The notes under the pieces: generated by a model | Seen by the model: the letters and a program-made list of their open reading frames with translations, nothing else | Database searches by the model: none | What the model was told of the DNA's origin: nothing | Translations under genes and position numbers: made by a program | In this document: positions 90 to 12,710 of the stretch, one piece after another | How the letters are laid out: each line of letters opens with the position of its first letter | Position numbering within the stretch: the stretch's first letter is position 1 | Origin: Fidelibacterota bacterium | GTDB lineage: Bacteria; Fidelibacterota; UBA2242 | Length of the DNA stretch: 32,373 bases | NCBI GenBank assembly: GCA_016783665.1 | Contig: JADHWC010000024.1 | Location: forward strand, 1-32,373 | Reading direction: 5' to 3'

Positions 90-896
90 TTAATCGATTA
101 CCGCTATTTCAGCCACCATTATTTGTCTATTATACCTAATAATTGATAATATATCTTCATATTCTTGATTTGCTAAAATTGGCTCAGGTTTATATGTATT
201 TCCTGATACCTCAGGGCGTTTTATTAAGGGTTTTTTTATAATAGATGGAACTGTATATGTTTGAGGAGCATTATCTCTTTTTTTAATTGGTAAACCGATA
301 TCCGATAACAATCCTTTATCAGCAATTAATTTCTTCTTTCGTATATCAATTATTTGGTTTATAGAACTTTCGAGTGAGTCATTATGACTTTTAATATCAC
401 TTTCAACCCAAGATAAATATCGTTCTATTAATCCAACTTCTCTATTATAAATTCCTTTGATTTCTTCTGCATTGTGATTTATTTGTCGAACAGCGATAAT
501 TATTTCATTACCTCTAATAATTCCTTGTGGTCTGTTTGAAGTAAATGATGATGGTTGAAAATCAAACAAAATAAAATTTCCACTAAAAGGAACAGCAATT
601 GAAATTTCTGTGCCTTTAATATAAAATGGTTTTGTTCTATCTCGAATATCACGCATTCTATCATGTCTCACATCAATATCTACTTCCCTTTGGTTATCAA
701 TATATATTTCATTTCTATCAATTTTAGGACAATCCAAATAATATTTTGAAATCAAATGTTGAGTTAAATCATAAACACTAATATTAAGTAAATAATCACT
801 ATTTAGACTAAATATTTCTTCTTTAAGATTATCTTTTAATTGCCTGAGATAATTATACAATTCACCCTTTTTATAGAACAAATAGTTATTAGGCAT
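90..896 (-). CDS. Hypothetical protein, probably C-terminally truncated member of a family that usually carries a C-terminal restriction-endonuclease-like domain
   Basis: 268-aa ORF; segments such as RDRTKPFYIKGTEISIAVPF...RPQGIIRGNEIIIAV and ...LPIKKRDNAPQTYTVP match my recollection of the N-terminal part of a longer family. Confidence 0.6.
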   Translation of the reverse strand: MPNNYLFYKKGELYNYLRQLKDNLKEEIFSLNSDYLLNISVYDLTQHLISKYYLDCPKIDRNEIYIDNQREVDIDVRHDRMRDIRDRTKPFYIKGTEISIAVPFSGNFILFDFQPSSFTSNRPQGIIRGNEIIIAVRQINHNAEEIKGIYNREVGLIERYLSWVESDIKSHNDSLESSINQIIDIRKKKLIADKGLLSDIGLPIKKRDNAPQTYTVPSIIKKPLIKRPEVSGNTYKPEPILANQEYEDILSIIRYNRQIMVAEIAVID

Positions 897-917
897 ACTG
901 TATTACCTCTTTTTAAT

Positions 918-1040
918 GTCTAACGGGCAAGCCTGAGATACGAGGTGATTCTAAGCGATAGTCTTTCAACTTTAAAATTCCTTTTGAAATTCCGAAAATC
1001 TCAAAATCATCGAACAGCTCACCGAGTTATCTCCAGCCAA
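918..1040. repeat. attC-like recombination site A (between the 268-aa ORF and the cyclase-like ORF)
   Basis: GTCTAAC (RYYYAAC, i.e. GTTAGAC on minus) at 918-924; imperfect stem GAGATACGAGGTGA (935-948) / TCACCGAGTTATCTC (1019-1033). The opposite core is degenerate. Confidence 0.5.
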
Positions 1041-1064
1041 TGGATATGTGAAAATCTATTAGAA

Positions 1065-1805
1065 TTATGAAACATCATTGTATTTTTCATATATTGCTTC
1101 AATAACTTTTTTTGTATTATCGACATATCTTCTTGGATTTCCTGATGTCATTGTTTTAAATGAATTGATCTTATCTAATAAATACTCTTTCTCTATATTA
1201 TTTTTTTCCAAATCAATGTATCGAAACCAGTCTAGGTTTAAATGAAATATAGAACCATATTTATTAAAAGGTGTTAAAACATCATAATAATCATAAATAT
1301 TACCCATATCTGGATTGTCTTTTATATAATTATCAATTGAATTGTGTGCTACTATTCCAAAATATGAAAGATCCTCTTCAAGGAGATATGAATCAATAAT
1401 TGGTTGACCAAAATATATTTGATTCGATTTATTAATACTAATATTTCCAAATGCTATTGCTCCTTTTAAAGGAATCGTCTTCTTTATAGTTTGTGCAAAT
1501 AACCATCCAGCAGAACTAGTAATTAATTTAAAACTATCTATAGTGCTATCTTTTGAAAAAAGTATGATAGAATCAGAAAAACTAACAGTATATAATCCCG
1601 AATTACCAAAAAGCTCTGGAAATTTCTTACTCTCTGGCATATGATCAATTATTTTTCGATATTCAGAAATTCCAGTAAGTAATTTATAGATATCTTCATG
1701 AGTACTACGCATAACTAAATCTTTAAATCCTAAAATGTCTAAAAAAACAACAAATCTTTTATCAGTGGGAATCCAATTTTGACTTGTACTTTTTGAAGAT
1801 TTCAT
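1065..1805 (-). CDS. Class III adenylate/guanylate cyclase-like protein (divergent)
   Basis: FVVFLDILGFKDLV, VSFSDSIILF, KGAIAFGNI and YFGQPIIDSYLLE resemble the first Asp motif, second Asp motif, G-x-x-x-G and VN-AxxLE-type regions of the class III cyclase fold. Confidence 0.65.
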   Translation of the reverse strand: MKSSKSTSQNWIPTDKRFVVFLDILGFKDLVMRSTHEDIYKLLTGISEYRKIIDHMPESKKFPELFGNSGLYTVSFSDSIILFSKDSTIDSFKLITSSAGWLFAQTIKKTIPLKGAIAFGNISINKSNQIYFGQPIIDSYLLEEDLSYFGIVAHNSIDNYIKDNPDMGNIYDYYDVLTPFNKYGSIFHLNLDWFRYIDLEKNNIEKEYLLDKINSFKTMTSGNPRRYVDNTKKVIEAIYEKYNDVS

Positions 1806-1840
1806 ATTTTCTCCATAATTACTCTAATTATTATATTAAC

Positions 1841-1971
1841 ACCTAACGGTGGCTGCATGAAGTACGCTTGTCGGAGTGCTTATTTTTCGCCTTTCGATTC
1901 ATGGTTAGAAAATCCTCAAAATCCTTGTTTGTCGAGCAGCTTACAGCGTTACTTCCATGCGATTGTTGAAC
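1841..1971. repeat. attC-like recombination site B
   Basis: ACCTAAC (RYYYAAC) 1841-1847 and GTTGAAC (GTTRRRY) 1965-1971, 131 bp; subterminal stem GCATGAAGTACGC / GCGTTACTTCCATGC. Confidence 0.6.
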
Positions 1972-2190
1972 TAAGCCCGGCAGCTGCCGGGCAGCCCGCC
2001 GGTAAAACAACAGGATAATTCTCTCCTTCAATATTCCTATCAGTCTTTCCATCTTATTTTAATCTACTGATTTTCAGTGGAAATTACACAAAAAAAGAAA
2101 GGACAGACATGACATCACTACGAAAACGGTTTGTCCCCGCCTACGTCAGGCAGGCCCGCCTGAATGACACTGTCGGGCAGGCAACCCCTG
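1972..2190. repeat. Copy 1 of a ~200-bp dispersed repeat beginning with the palindrome CCCGGCAGCTGCCGGG
   Basis: Near-identical to 12472-12685, e.g. CAGTCTTTCCATCTTA..TTAATCTACTGATTT..AGTGGAAATTACACAAAAAAAGAAA and ATGACATCACTACGAAAACGGTTT..TCCCCGCCT. Confidence 0.85.
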
Positions 2191-2264
2191 ACGCTGCGCG
2201 ATCAGGTACAAAGACTTGTTGAACTAAGCCGCAAGCGACATATCGCTGAAATCAGGGCTTCTTG

Positions 2265-2336
2265 AATCCTGGATTGATTACGACTTTCATATATTTTTAT
2301 CGGTATTGTCGTATCAATCCTTATTTGTTAGAAGTC
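2265..2336. repeat. Short or half attC-like site C downstream of the TIR ORF
   Basis: On minus: ACTTCTAAC (core) then GGATTGATACGAC ... GTCGTAATCAATCC stem; the opposite core is not clear, possibly disrupted by the adjacent repeat. Confidence 0.4.
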
Positions 2337-3278
2337 GTTATTTAATATCCTTTTTAGAGATGGGGAAACACTAATTATTCTAATATGACCGCCCATAGCT
2401 ATAACAATCTTTATATGGTTGTTATTATTTAGAAGTTTAAGGACATGATTTACTAACGGAATTGGTTGATTAACTTCAATTGAAATTTCATTATTATTTT
2501 TCAAATCCATATTTATAATTGCTACTATTATGTCATTTATAATTTCGTCATAATTCGGAATATATGACTTAGCGTACTCATTCATACCATGTATGGTTAT
2601 TTCATATCGATATGGCCCAGGCCCCATATGCCTATATAGTTTAACGAAACCATTTTGTTCTAAAATTAGAATGGAATCTGATAGTTCTTCTTGAGGAATA
2701 CTTATTGGGCTATTTAATCCAAACAGGGTATTTGGTTCTATAATTGAACATTTTTTATCCAAGACACATTCACAGGATACTTTTAGAATCAAGTTATCAA
2801 TTTTATTTAATCCCGGGATATCAAGTATTTTTTCTGTCATATACGATGGTTTTGACCCAAGAGTCGGTTTATCATATTGTCCAAATATTGAGGCTATAAT
2901 TCTATCAAATGATTCTTGATAATTATTAATATCTATAATTTTTTCCCACAATGTTGATTTTAGGCTTTCTGGCACAATACAGTTATCTAAAACAACAGGA
3001 ATTATTTTTGAGCCTTTATTAATTTTTTTTATGATACTTGCATTTAGTTCTTCTTTGACCCATGCTTTATTAACACTGTTAATAGATAATACAATTATTA
3101 CTGCACTAGCTTCTTTTAAACCTTCATCAAAGATTTTTTCGACTAGACTATCACCCGGAAGCATTTCCCAACGGTCAAGCCATACATCAACTCCAGATTC
3201 ACGTAATTTCCTCGCGAAGTCAAGTACAAATCTTTCTTTATCTTCACTTGCATGACTTAAGAATACTTTAGGATTCAT
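2328..3278 (-). CDS. TIR-domain protein with C-terminal winged-helix-like region
   Basis: N-terminus PKVFLSHASEDKERFVLDFARKLRESGVDVWLDRWEMLPGDSL typical of bacterial TIR; C-terminal ILEQNGFVKLYRHMGPGPYRYEITIHGMNEYAKSYIPNYDEII and VNHVLKLLNNNNHIKIV resemble wHTH. Confidence 0.85.
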   Translation of the reverse strand: MNPKVFLSHASEDKERFVLDFARKLRESGVDVWLDRWEMLPGDSLVEKIFDEGLKEASAVIIVLSINSVNKAWVKEELNASIIKKINKGSKIIPVVLDNCIVPESLKSTLWEKIIDINNYQESFDRIIASIFGQYDKPTLGSKPSYMTEKILDIPGLNKIDNLILKVSCECVLDKKCSIIEPNTLFGLNSPISIPQEELSDSILILEQNGFVKLYRHMGPGPYRYEITIHGMNEYAKSYIPNYDEIINDIIVAIINMDLKNNNEISIEVNQPIPLVNHVLKLLNNNNHIKIVIAMGGHIRIISVSPSLKRILNNDF

Positions 3279-3302
3279 TTAGTTATCCCCATAATATTTT
3301 AC

Positions 3303-3424
3303 ACTTCTAACGAATAAGTGTCACCTACGGCGGAATTGATTTCGCTAACTTTCATACATCTCAAAAACGTATCGCAAACTCGCAAAATCATCAATAAAAA
3401 ACCGCTCCAGCCGCCGTTAGGTGC
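3303..3424. repeat. attC-like recombination site D (between TIR ORF and lipoprotein ORF)
   Basis: ACTTCTAAC 3303-3311 and GTTAGGT (GTTRRRY) 3416-3422; stem CACCTACGGCGG (3322-3333) / CCGCCGTTAGGTG (3411-3423). Confidence 0.6.
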
Positions 3425-3458
3425 ACACAATGGTTATACCATTTATTTTCTAAGTTTT

Positions 3459-4265
3459 CTAACAAATGAATAATGTCCAATAAGTGATTACTTCACCACT
3501 TAATATATCTACAAATACATAAAAATCAGGATATATACTTCCCCCAAATATCGGCACTCTCCAACAAACACGCATTTCAAGAGAATCGCCCTGTTCATAA
3601 GGAAGAATTTTTATCGATGTTTCTTCTTTTGCATTATCAATATGTATTGCATCTTCGGTTACAATAAAAGTATCTACTTCGGCGTAGCCATAATATATCA
3701 ACTCTGCACCAATTACTGATTCTTCTGCTTCTTCTGAACTTATCAAATTATTTTCAGGAACAACAATATCACCATAATGGTGTCCATCGACCTGCACTAT
3801 GTTATCAGTAATTAATACCATAATATTTGTTTTTAATACCTCAATAGTATCATGTGCCTGGTTTTGAAATGATACAATCCAATCGTTAAATAGATTAGTT
3901 CCATGTTGGTTTGTAGCTTCGGAAACAATTAACTTGGATGTATCACTTACGTTAGTGAATTGAGAAAATGCAACAACGGCTGATTTTGCCTTCGATACTG
4001 CATAATTCACATCATTAATCGATGATGATCCTCTACTGAGTAATCCAGATGGACCAATAAAACCATATTCATCTAATGTTGCTTTATAATGGGAATTCAA
4101 TAGCGAATCCAATTCTAATTGTAATTCGTTAAGTTCTGATTCCGATAATGGGTATAGAATTATTGGATAATCAATATTTGCATTATCGTGTTCTTCTGAT
4201 GACTCAAATAATTCGCATCTAATAAAAAATAGAAGAAGCAGCATAAATAAATAGACCTTTTTCAT
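3459..4265 (-). CDS. Putative lipoprotein of unknown function
   Basis: MKKVYLFMLLLLFFIRCELFES: positively charged start, hydrophobic core and Cys at the expected lipobox position (non-canonical lipobox). Confidence 0.6.
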   Translation of the reverse strand: MKKVYLFMLLLLFFIRCELFESSEEHDNANIDYPIILYPLSESELNELQLELDSLLNSHYKATLDEYGFIGPSGLLSRGSSSINDVNYAVSKAKSAVVAFSQFTNVSDTSKLIVSEATNQHGTNLFNDWIVSFQNQAHDTIEVLKTNIMVLITDNIVQVDGHHYGDIVVPENNLISSEEAEESVIGAELIYYGYAEVDTFIVTEDAIHIDNAKEETSIKILPYEQGDSLEMRVCWRVPIFGGSIYPDFYVFVDILSGEVITYWTLFIC

Positions 4266-4493
4266 TTTACACCTCTTATGTTTTAATAAGGTATAACATA
4301 TGTTTAACCTTCACATATTCTCAAAAAAAAGTTTTTCTATAGAGAAATAAATTTCTCCATAGACAAAGTTTTACTCTCAAAATACTTCTCATTCATTATG
4401 TGTAATTTAAACCATTTAGTATTCGACTTTCAAGACCTAAAACCTGAGATATGCAGTAAGTTTTATATATAAATTTTGATTGGTATAAATATA

Positions 4494-4615
4494 GGCGAGC
4501 GGTGTTCCAATTAGGTCGGCGCTCCAGTAAACTGGATCAATGCACAATGGCAAGTCCTGACGCCTCGGGACGATCACCTTTACCCGATATTTGGACTCGG
4601 GACTCACCGCTCACC
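4494..4615. other. Compact multi-stem element (possible structured RNA or folded ssDNA site)
   Basis: Closing stem GGCGAGCGGTG (4494-4504)/CACCGCTCACC (4605-4615) encloses hairpins TCCAG-TAAA-CTGGA (4523-4536), GTCCTGA-CGCC-TCGGGAC (4554-4571) and CCCGA..TCGGG (4583-4601). Confidence 0.5.
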
Positions 4616-4667
4616 ATAAATTTTCTCAATATTTTTAACGTATTTCGAATATACTATTTTATATGTC

Positions 4668-7600
4668 CTAAAATTTTATTTTATCAATTTCTTTCATAAT
4701 TCTACCTGTTTCCGAAAGAGCAACAATGATTTTCTGATAATGTAAAATATCATCAAAACTCAATTCACGTCCTCGGCGGTCTTTAAGCCATTTCTGAGCA
4801 GGCTGGTATCCGCCAATGTAGAACTCCCATGCAACAAGCGGGATATTATCAAAATACTGTTGGTCGTTTATCCAAATTCTGCCAGTTTGATTTTCCGGAT
4901 CGGTAATATCCCAGTCATTTTTACGGAGTTTTCGTGTAATGACATTATCCCCATCCTGGGGGTAGGTAGTTATGTATTGTTCCACCTTTGGAGATTCCAA
5001 TAGATGTATTTGTCGAATTTCTCCACCAAGTTTTACTAATTGCCAAAAGGTTTCCTGGTTTTTTGGATAAGGTACTCTCGGAAAATCTATTTTTAGAAAT
5101 TCTTTGTATTTTTCTCTATAAGTCGGTGAATGTAAAACAGCATAGATGTAATCCAGAATATCAATTGGGGCAAAGGTATTTTCTGTTTCTTCTTTTTCGC
5201 TTGTGAATTCCAGCTTGATATTTTCTTCTAATTGCTCTACAATTTCCATATTCAGGTTGGGTTTTCTGCCTTGTTCGGCATATAAACCATCGGTTTTGTT
5301 GTCTGGGTAAAGGTAGAGAGGGAAGAAATTACCTGAACCATATCTACCAGCATTACCAGTTAAATTAAATTCCCCAATTAATTTCGAAATAAATATATAT
5401 CTCCAATCACTTGCACATTGTCTTGCAGCAACTAACCCCATATTTTCACCTTTAAGGAAGTGTTGCATAACCTGACCTCTTGGCATACAATGAAAACCTT
5501 TGGATTTCCCTGTGTAATATGTCCATCTATCATCAAACGGACGGTATGAAACTTTGCAAATGTTATCAGTTGAAAGATTTGATTGTTTTAAATCCTCTTG
5601 GGCTAAATGCACTTTCCAATCCCGGACATCTTTACCAAGAGAATATTTTGTTCGCGCTTCTTCTATTTCTAGACTAACGAAATCGTTTATTATTTCAGTT
5701 ACTCTTTCTTTTGTGGCTTGAATTGTAAAATCATCTCTTGCTGTAACAATACCAACTGAATTAACAATAAATAACTCAACTATTGAAAATCCTTTATTAT
5801 ACTGTTTTTGTATTTTAAAATCTTTTTGTACAAAGAAATAATGAGGCTCTACATTTGGCAATTCCACATAAGGAACAGACTTAATATTATTCTCCCAAAG
5901 GAAATTGTATTTTTCTTCACGTTTCCCATAAAGGTCATAATGAAAGACTTTCCCGAGTTCATTAGTTTTCTTTTTACCTGTTTTTACAAATAAGTTAATA
6001 GAGACACCTTGCTGAATATCAAATACATTTACATCAGGTGAACCATCGGGGCAAACTTCTTTCTTTTTACTGTTGCCGTGTAAATCTATAGTATAAATCT
6101 TATCGTATGTTTTTAACAGGTTCCAGCGCATACCTCTAAAAGTAGGATTATCGAGAAAGCCGTGTGGATTAATAAATGCTAAAATGCCCTCTCCGTTTTT
6201 TTCAATAAAATATTGACCATAGCGTAAAAATTTCACATAATCATCATTAATCCATTTAGGATTCCGTTCTTTTAATTTTTCTTTACCACCCGGCTCTTTT
6301 TTATAATCTTGCATCAGATTCATGATCCAATCGCCTTTATTGGAACTTTCTCCACTATACGGCGGATTCCCAATTACACACATAACAGGCGCATCACGCT
6401 TAATATGATTTGCTTCGTTTGCCTCTGTAGAGAGCCAATTGGCAAACAGGGTTCCTGTATCCGGGTGGTGTTCTTCTAATGAGTTAGTAAGGAATATTCT
6501 AAAACGTTGCTCTTTTTTGGGATTGTAGCCTGTTTCCCGGAGCAGTAAATCTAATTTCAGATGAGCCATTGCATAAGAAGCCATCAATAACTCAAATCCA
6601 TTCAAGCGGGGTATTAAATGGTTTTCTACATACTGACTCCAAATCCCCTGCTGTCCTTTAAACTTCTTGTAAATGTGTTTTACTATTTCCGCCAAAAATG
6701 TCCCCGTACCGGCAGCCGGGTCAAGAATCTGAACTTTATGGACTTCCTGTTTGATACGTTTATAAGCTGTCGGAGAGCGCTTATCAGGTGTTTGCGTATC
6801 AATTTCTATTGTGGTTTTGGAAGTGTCTGCTAATCCTTGTGATAATCCAAATTCGGTTTTTAGAATATCGTCAACGGCACGTACAATAAAATTCACCACG
6901 GGTTCGGGTGTGTACCAGACACCCCGGCTCTTTCGCAATTTCGGATTATACTCTGCCAGAAATTTCTCATAGAAGTGAACCATGGGGTCGTTTTGTTGTG
7001 TAGCAGAACCAAAATCTTTCAACAGATCGGCAACATTTGTCGCTCTGAAAATTTCAGCCAGAGCATCAACAATCCATTTAATCCGGTCATCTAAGTCATA
7101 GCCGGCAATATATTGAAATAGTTTCCGTAAAAAGGGGTTTGTTCTCGGTATCAGTTCGGCTGCTTCCTGTCTGGAAAAATCTTCTAAGGTCCTGTCATGC
7201 AACCGGGCGGCAAACATGCCATAAGCAATTGTCTGGGCATATATATCGGCGAATTCATTCGGCTGTATATCATGAATTAAAACATCCTTGAAGGCTTTCA
7301 TCTGCTCTTTAAGCGTACTGTCCGCTTCATTATCTTCATCGCTCAACAAAGCCCGCTCAATTACGGTTTCCAGTAGTCTTGCTTTACCAGCCATCATTTT
7401 AGATAGTATAGATGCAGATTTGATAGTTTGTCCAACATAGGTGCAAAAGTTTATTATGAGATTGGTGAAGGTACCAAAATTTTCTGGTATAGGATGTATT
7501 TTGCCCTTTTCAATTTCTGCAATTTTAATAGACGTTATGAATTTCCCATCGATATATAGCCGGAAATCAAGATAATCAGTAATGATAAGGTTTTGGAGTG

Positions 7601-7877
7601 ACTTTTTATATCGGTCGAATTGCTCTTTGTATTCCTTGCTGTCTAAGGGCTTAGCTATGTCCTTGGCTTCAATATAGCCAACAGGGATATTCCTTTTTGT
7701 AATGATATAATCCGGGGCGCCGCAAGCAACTCTGGCAGGTTCATTAGTGGCTAAAACACCGGGAGCAAGGTTTTCCACAAGACGTTGTAAGTCTCCACGG
7801 TAGCTGTGCTCTGTGGAAATTCCGGTTCTATATCTTGTATTGATATTTTGTAAATAATCGTTGATATGTTCATTCAT
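4668..7877 (-). CDS. Single-chain restriction-modification enzyme: N-terminal PD-(D/E)XK-like nuclease + N6-adenine methyltransferase + target-recognition/Type ISP-like C-terminus (Type IIG-like)
   Basis: N-terminal APDYIITKRNIPVGYIEAKDI (D..ExK); motif I VQILDPAAGTGTFLAEI; motif IV VIGNPPYSGES; no Walker A/DEAD-type helicase motif seen. Confidence 0.9.
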   Translation of the reverse strand: MNEHINDYLQNINTRYRTGISTEHSYRGDLQRLVENLAPGVLATNEPARVACGAPDYIITKRNIPVGYIEAKDIAKPLDSKEYKEQFDRYKKSLQNLIITDYLDFRLYIDGKFITSIKIAEIEKGKIHPIPENFGTFTNLIINFCTYVGQTIKSASILSKMMAGKARLLETVIERALLSDEDNEADSTLKEQMKAFKDVLIHDIQPNEFADIYAQTIAYGMFAARLHDRTLEDFSRQEAAELIPRTNPFLRKLFQYIAGYDLDDRIKWIVDALAEIFRATNVADLLKDFGSATQQNDPMVHFYEKFLAEYNPKLRKSRGVWYTPEPVVNFIVRAVDDILKTEFGLSQGLADTSKTTIEIDTQTPDKRSPTAYKRIKQEVHKVQILDPAAGTGTFLAEIVKHIYKKFKGQQGIWSQYVENHLIPRLNGFELLMASYAMAHLKLDLLLRETGYNPKKEQRFRIFLTNSLEEHHPDTGTLFANWLSTEANEANHIKRDAPVMCVIGNPPYSGESSNKGDWIMNLMQDYKKEPGGKEKLKERNPKWINDDYVKFLRYGQYFIEKNGEGILAFINPHGFLDNPTFRGMRWNLLKTYDKIYTIDLHGNSKKKEVCPDGSPDVNVFDIQQGVSINLFVKTGKKKTNELGKVFHYDLYGKREEKYNFLWENNIKSVPYVELPNVEPHYFFVQKDFKIQKQYNKGFSIVELFIVNSVGIVTARDDFTIQATKERVTEIINDFVSLEIEEARTKYSLGKDVRDWKVHLAQEDLKQSNLSTDNICKVSYRPFDDRWTYYTGKSKGFHCMPRGQVMQHFLKGENMGLVAARQCASDWRYIFISKLIGEFNLTGNAGRYGSGNFFPLYLYPDNKTDGLYAEQGRKPNLNMEIVEQLEENIKLEFTSEKEETENTFAPIDILDYIYAVLHSPTYREKYKEFLKIDFPRVPYPKNQETFWQLVKLGGEIRQIHLLESPKVEQYITTYPQDGDNVITRKLRKNDWDITDPENQTGRIWINDQQYFDNIPLVAWEFYIGGYQPAQKWLKDRRGRELSFDDILHYQKIIVALSETGRIMKEIDKIKF

Positions 7878-8399
7878 GGGAATTCAATACGCCTTATAGT
7901 TAGGAAAATAACGGTTTTATATTTGCTTCATTCCTATTATTAATTACCAATCCGTATTAATATCAACATACTCCAGCGAATGACGAACACAGTGCCAATC
8001 CGGATTTCAATCATATCTCATAAATTACCAGCCTGAACATACCCATTTTCAGACTTTTGTTTGTATCCAAAACGGCCTGTTTTATCTGTTTATCGACGAG
8101 CAATCCAAAATACTCCTGCAACCAACCCGATATCCTTCCCCAATGCAGCAGCACCGTCAGTCCCGTCTCCGGCAGCTGCCGGAAATTTGACTGCGGTACT
8201 TTGTTTTTACACCTCCCCCGTTTGTAGAATTACCGCTTGTAGTGATTTTATCATTTATTATGAAAGAGTGCAACTGTTTTTTGTATAAATCCGTATCCGG
8301 CACCAGATGACAAATATGGGCGACATTTGGTAGAGAATGTATCCAACAACCACGGGTTTTCACCGGTAACATCTCCAATCAACCATAAGATTGCATTCC

Positions 8400-8560
8400 G
8401 AGACTTGACTTAAGACTGCAATATCAAAGAACATAAACCGATCTCCAAACTTCCCCGGCAGGCTTGAGTTAAGTCGAATCGCTATCGCCCTTAACTTAAG
8501 TCGTCTCAAACACTCACGCTTATTTAAAAAATCATCCCATGCCGCCTTAAGTCAAGGGCT
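8400..8560. repeat. Cluster of (C)TTAAGTC / GACTTAAG motifs in intergenic DNA
   Basis: GACTTAAGAC 8407-8416; TTAAGTCG 8469-8476; CTTAAGTCG 8495-8503; CTTAAGTC 8546-8553. Confidence 0.5.
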
Positions 8561-8620
8561 TGCGAACCTACGGCTGGGAAATATAAAATATCGAAAAATG
8601 ACTATTGAAACAGTAAAAGA

Positions 8621-12471: not shown

Positions 12472-12685
12472 AAACTAAGCCCGGCAGCTGCCGGGCTGCC
12501 CGTCTGTAAAACCACGGAATAATTCGCTCCTTTAATATTCCTGCCAGTCTTTCCATCTTATATTAATCTACTGATTTTTAGTGGAAATTACACAAAAAAA
12601 GAAATAACAGGCATGACATCACTACGAAAACGGTTTATCCCCGCCTGCGTCGGGCAGGCCCGCCTGAATGACACTGTCGGGCAGG
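12472..12685. repeat. Copy 2 of the ~200-bp dispersed repeat
   Basis: AACTAAGCCCGGCAGCTGCCGGGC...GACACTGTCGGGCAGG aligned by eye to 1970-2185 with scattered substitutions. Confidence 0.85.
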
Positions 12686-12710
12686 GAACCTGCGACCCTC
12701 GGCTTAAAAG
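12686..12710 (-). repeat. 25-nt partial tRNA-Lys copy (anticodon loop to T arm)
   Basis: GAACCTGCGACCCTCGGCTTAAAAG versus tRNA-Lys GAACCTGCGACCCACGGCTTAAAAG (12958-12982); one mismatch. Confidence 0.8.

Follow-up and report, generated by a model that had tools for sequence, protein, structure and literature searches.

We analyzed a 32,373-nt stretch of DNA (hereafter, the window), which is the entire contig C26 of an uncultured marine Candidatus Neomarinimicrobiota metagenome-assembled genome (MAG) totaling 2.38 Mb in 121 contigs. Near its start, the window carries four minus-strand genes accompanied by attC recombination sites, and an attI-type site, a type IIG restriction-modification (RM) gene and a homologue of the DNA lying 5′ of integron integrase genes (intI) in relatives are located upstream of them in the direction of transcription (Table 1). 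We consider it very likely that this region is a Neomarinimicrobiota chromosomal integron platform whose integrase gene has been lost in cis. The window was compared with 60 genomes besides its own (61 genomes overall), and the GTDB family of the host is represented by 16 genomes.

Table 1. Coordinates of the genes and recombination-related features in the window
Feature	Position	Strand	Description
Gene 1	90-896	-	Relative of phage-defence candidate PDC-S54; PADLOC E 1.8e-67
attC A	918-1049	-	R″ ACATATC (degenerate), R′ GTTAGAC; model R1 118.4 bits, in training set
Gene 2	1065-1805	-	246 aa, FLDILGF-type protein; no family
attC B	1841-1971	-	R″ GTTCAAC, R′ GTTAGGT; descriptor 15; model R1 97.8 bits, in training set
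Lrep	~2243-2335	-	3′ end of TIR cassette; R″ CTTCTAAC, hairpin GGATTGATACGAC/GTCGTAATCAATCC
TIR-domain protein	2328-3278	-	316 aa, bSEFIR/TIR-type; cassette ends GTTAGAAGT/ACTTCTAAC
attC D	3305-3439	-	R″ GTATAAC (3439-3433), R′ GTTAGAA; descriptor 17/17; model R1 92.7 bits, in training set
Gene 4	3459-4265	-	Predicted lipoprotein cassette gene; no Pfam match
attI-type site	4297-4440	-	Crossover between 4297 (G) and 4296 (T); homologous to sequence 3′ of intI in relatives
Conserved structured element	4490-4622	not settled	Candidate non-coding RNA, between attI and RM gene
Type IIG RM gene	4668-7877	-	PADLOC REase_MTase_IIG 1264 bits; Pfam Type_ISP_C
intI 5′-flank homologue	7951-8282	-	85% over 330 bp to DNA just 5′ of intI, G001 C17

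attC sites and cassette genes

The attC sites were measured against those of class 1 plasmid integrons, which have the geometry R″ (7 nt), 8 nt, an extrahelical base, 6 bp, a second extrahelical base and the stem, with R′ (7 nt) at the other end. A positional descriptor of this geometry was chosen because the MAFFT alignment of class 1 attC sites for a covariance model was misaligned. Most class 1 attC sites score 14.5–17 with this descriptor, the longest ones (among them OXA, arr-3 and qnrVC) fall under the cut-off, and IntI-adjoining arrays in numerous other bacteria are also picked up. On the minus strand of the window, no place other than attC D and attC B reached a score of 15, and 20 dinucleotide shuffles gave at most 14.5. 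The third site, attC A, has a degenerate R″ core and for that reason falls outside the strict descriptor; a genomic copy on contig C106 shares 85% identity with it, and it is the top-scoring window match of covariance model R1. This model was built from 12 aligned Neomarinimicrobiota sites, and its matches in the window are A, B and D only, all three being training sequences.

The bottom strand of each attC site folds into a canonical hairpin with two extrahelical bases, and the R″/R′ cores, the L″/L′ stem and the fixed spacing of the extrahelical bases are all recovered. Across the 12 Neomarinimicrobiota sites, 93.9% of the stem cells are paired, compared with 77.3% in shuffled alignments and at most 39% in slid ones. 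Cells changed on both sides number 31 versus 11.9 after shuffling, with none of 500 shuffles as high. The original prediction had interpreted the spacers between the genes as attC sites, and both the covariation and the model R1 scores of these training-set sites bear this out. An exact string search also located the motifs that it named (GTCTAAC at 918, ACCTAAC at 1841, GTTGAAC at 1965, ACTTCTAAC at 3303 and GTTAGGT at 3416) and the internal strings of the spacers (AAAATCTCAAAATC at 995, AAAATCCTCAAAATC at 1909 and GCAAAATCATC at 3382). In site D, GTTAGGT at 3416 is only an inner box, and the true R″ is the one listed in Table 1.

The TIR gene matched Pfam TIR_2 (E 1.9e-26), PADLOC bSEFIR (E 1.7e-26) and TIR NADases solved in the PDB (E 1.6e-16), and the alignment to the solved NADases includes the W..xEL motif with the catalytic glutamate. 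Gene 1 is shortened to 268 aa (profile positions 1–256 of 410) near the contig end, possibly due to an insertion sequence. Gene 2, earlier labelled class III cyclase-like, showed no match above the cut-off in Pfam or PADLOC and none in NCBIfam or the PDB. Single-sequence structure predictions of gene 2 (predicted local distance difference test [pLDDT] 37) and TIR (pLDDT 36–37 for the pair) were uninformative and were not used. The label of defence-type genes is thus solid for TIR and reasonable for gene 1 through PDC-S54, leaving the theme solid for one to two of the four genes, and these two proteins may protect against phages.

Comparison with the relatives revealed that the gene-4 cassette occupies different positions. 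Its homologue in G004 (C213, 74%) lies between two attC sites, whereas the cassette in the window lies between attI and attC D. The homology between the two begins exactly at GTTATACC, as expected of single-cassette movement with G^TT junctions, and the R″ of the cassette, GGTATAAC, has 8-nt complementarity to the cassette start. The ends of the TIR unit are exactly complementary over 9 nt, as had been noticed from the sequence, with GTTAGAAGT at 2327–2335 rather than 2328–2336 by exact string search. No close homologue of TIR was found in the 60 relatives: it is absent from the genus and the family, the best match (33%, E 2e-12) belongs to another family, and no TIR relatives were found in viral contigs. 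Genes 1 and 2 have no close homologue in the 60 relatives. The four genes are therefore not one fixed block in relatives, gene 4 occurring as a separate cassette. At the loci of the HU gene, C103 and C98 (a surA-like gene), the downstream flank is kept between genomes, whereas the upstream cassettes vary; HU and xerD are close in G004 with no array between them, whereas in the genome of the window the two genes have separate arrays beside them.

On the minus strand, the intI 5′ flank is followed by the RM gene, attI and then the cassettes. Cassette 1 consists of gene 4 and attC D, and cassette 2 of the TIR gene ending in the repeat element Lrep; a second short array of attC B, gene 2, attC A and gene 1 then reaches the contig end. 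The units are integron cassettes, as originally proposed, and they form two adjacent arrays rather than the single array of that proposal.

The attI-type site, the intI slot and the genomic integrase

On the minus strand 5′ of gene 4, the sequence reads ...TGTGAAGGTTAAACATAT^GTTATACC. The attI-type site and the preceding repeats (of the TCTATAGAGAAAC type) match the DNA that immediately follows intI and a small open reading frame (ORF) on the 3′ side in G001 (C17). The region can also be aligned, more weakly, to G004 (C153), and copies are present in the same genome on C88 and C29. C29 and C99 of this genome retain the 3′ end of the small ORF found between intI and attI. By this homology to the DNA 3′ of intI in G001 and G004, the array starts at an attI-type site; a complete integron, with intI adjoining attI and the array, is not present in the window. 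The ORF between intI and attI (~112 aa; L140 9086–9421 [-] and L144 593–925 [-]) has no Pfam family, and its homologues L064, L061 and L091 are located near intI in other phyla (KSB1, a Chloroflexi MAG and Gammaproteobacteria).

The intI 5′-flank homologue lies on the other side of the RM gene. Positions 7951–8110 also match sequences beside intI in G004 (C153) and G003 (C128), and in G004 (C87) they match beside a 15-aa intI remnant. The intI-specific part is limited to 7951–8110 because 8140–8304 is also a dispersed repeat. The RM gene sits between this flank and attI, where the relatives have intI and its neighbour ORF, and the simplest reading would be loss of intI, with the RM gene coming to fill its slot. 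In C87 of G004 (L205 1439–1489), the remnant has the intI 5′ flank on one side and an array on the other, a case of integrase loss by deletion.

An intact integron integrase is encoded elsewhere in the genome, on C86 (19743–20681; TIGR02249 483.6 bits versus a cut-off of 265). Its translation shows the IntI-specific insert and the R/HxxR/Y residues, and its closest named kin are from the Neomarinimicrobiota MAGs UBA9312 (91% identical) and BS750m-G69 (81%). The array lies 3′ of intI and in the same direction in UBA9312 and G001. Contig C86 terminates at the likely attI crossover, AATAAACGTA^GTTA, where UBA9312 goes on into a cassette; this stop (L138 20000) may mean that strains differ in their first cassette. 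The recombinase adjoining the array on C106 was considered as an integrase and is XerD. The statement that no integrase is visible thus holds for the window, where no intI adjoins the array, and fails for the genome, whose IntI is found on C86 only. Since that IntI is intact, it could act in trans on the window array.

Model R1 detected 13 attC sites on eight contigs of this genome, seven of them outside the training set, and found attC sites in 22 of the 61 genomes, including 15 of the 16 in the GTDB family. A lineage-specific attC family spans almost the entire GTDB family, and its cassette junctions are precise to the single nucleotide. On C98 (L035 14857–15066), an element whose ORF start, MKYIGL, resembles IS110-family transposases cuts an attC site short; it is reminiscent of IS1111-attC elements, which target attC sites.

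Lrep and other elements between the genes

Lrep is a ~90-bp element with 22 distinct copies in this genome and five relatives, all of the same family. IntI is intact in five of these six genomes, and UBA9312 (G009) has IntI and no Lrep. Several genomes have Lrep at one fixed locus with varying cassettes upstream, for example beside the core gene HU. As a canonical attC site, Lrep was rejected in either orientation, since, read in gene orientation, its one extra base falls in the 3′ arm and not in the 5′ arm at R″+8/+15. Because it failed this geometry test, Lrep was treated as a separate recombination-site-like element. Other Lrep loci are L029, L034, L035, L036, L139 and L151–L166, and AATAAGGATAGAT...CTTATCC hairpins near intI in Desulfobacter, Methylococcaceae and Sulfuricella resemble Lrep. 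The gene-free segment 1969–2186, which precedes attC B, is 91% identical to 12473–12690 of the same contig and contains GC-rich palindromic repeats common to other loci.

The structured element between attI and the RM gene is ~125 nt long with a GAGCGGTG/CACCGCTC closing stem. It is 81–97% identical in four related genomes, reaching 97% in another genus, with fold z values of -3.2/-3.6 and compensatory changes at three pairs among five sequences. Rfam searches of the window and of 4270–4680 returned two tRNAs and no other family, and thus none matching this element.

Competing explanations and relation to known integrons

In the proposed mechanism, the bottom strands of the attC sites would fold, the integron integrase most likely cuts at G^TT, and circular cassettes would be inserted at attI or attC. 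Several points weigh against reading the region as an integron platform whose intI was lost in cis. A tblastn search of the window gave no intI remnant (E above 1), and because of this the replacement of intI by the RM gene is read solely from the two flanks. The interval 1971–2243, between Lrep and attC B, is free of genes, and the R″ of attC A is degenerate. The C86 integrase has its own attI, TCGAATAAACGTA^GTTA, unlike the attI of the window, and because the two sequences differ, its action in trans on the window attI is uncertain. In addition, the MAG is fragmented, repeats around the arrays invite mis-assembly, and cassette recombination is predicted here from sequences.

An assembly chimera, in which repeats (attI, attC, Lrep and intergenic) joined unrelated pieces and made the RM placement only apparent, is unlikely. 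The genome is a 121-contig MAG in which contigs with arrays break off at insertion sequences or repeats, and the RM gene has dispersed repeats next to it (8140–8590). However, the intI flank, the gene and attI have the same order and orientation as at the intI loci of relatives, an agreement seldom expected from a random join, and the cassette array is independent of the RM join.

We judge as quite improbable a plain cluster of attC sites lacking integron integrases (CALIN), in which IntI placed the cassettes at a genomic site other than attI (attG) or an array decayed, without attI. Neither the 5′ end of the array, an attI-type sequence that two relatives share near their intI, nor the presence of the intI 5′ flank fits this explanation; the missing intI in the window does fit, as do the solitary attC sites scattered over many contigs in the family, which attG insertion predicts. 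Cassette insertion at attG sites has reportedly been observed chromosome-wide by Loot and colleagues. Such insertion would explain scattered integrase-less cassettes, whereas the window array begins at an attI-type site and not at an anonymous attG. Both attG sites and fixed-locus CALINs in Xanthomonas are discussed in PMC12444791. A defence island of the ordinary kind, its fixed genes interspersed with repetitive extragenic palindrome (REP)-like repeats and chance core motifs, would account for defence-type genes clustering beside a restriction system and for the further intergenic repeats in the genome, but it is refuted by the gene-4 cassette break at the core and the stem covariation, and the base-exact canonical spacing, the R″/R′ complementarity in each unit, the IntI in the genome and the cassette-bounded homology also contradict it.

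A platform with its integrase gene lost in cis shares features with several known systems. For IntegronFinder (PMC9024848), a CALIN is defined as two or more attC sites without adjacent intI. The window resembles one in that it has two or more attC sites, its single-gene cassettes all point the same way and no intI lies next to them. It differs in that the attI-type site and the DNA 5′ of intI are kept, in having an intact IntI elsewhere in the genome and in the Lrep ends of part of the array. The original prediction of a CALIN-like array is thus right, with three attC sites in the window and IntI on C86 only, and incomplete because the retained attI-type site makes the array more than a CALIN. 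Integron defence genes and sedentary antiphage stores are known (Darracq 2025, Getz 2025 and Kieffer 2025, as cited in PMC12444791). Like sedentary chromosomal integrons, this genome has one homogeneous chromosomal attC family and cassettes that include defence genes; the differences are the few cassettes per locus, their scatter over the chromosome, the Neomarinimicrobiota host and the RM gene in place of intI. In Treponema (PMC3607928), chromosomal integrons have their array on the 3′ side of intI and in the same orientation, and T. phagedenis has lost the integrase while retaining attC sites. UBA9312 and G001 share this orientation, and the window shares the loss of integrase with attC kept, whereas it also keeps attI without intI and has another gene filling the gap.

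The literature searched contained no treatment of Marinimicrobia/Neomarinimicrobiota integrons that we could find; four papers named both the phylum and integrons, the latter just once or twice apiece. The host lineage is new, as are Lrep and a platform that keeps attI without intI and has an RM gene in the intI slot. We tentatively propose, at somewhat less than even confidence, a "distributed integron" with several attI-type entry sites, short attC arrays and an array-terminal Lrep family dispersed along the chromosome and one integrase acting in trans, in which the intI slot would have been taken by an RM gene beside antiphage cassettes. Lrep would be a second candidate docking site, and it may escape attC finders because it does not have the canonical attC geometry. 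An attI site without intI, with a defence gene in the intI slot, would allow the fragmentation of a platform, its spread over the chromosome and its running in trans to be examined. The array extends integron-style storage of swappable, partly antiviral genes to a little-studied bacterial phylum.

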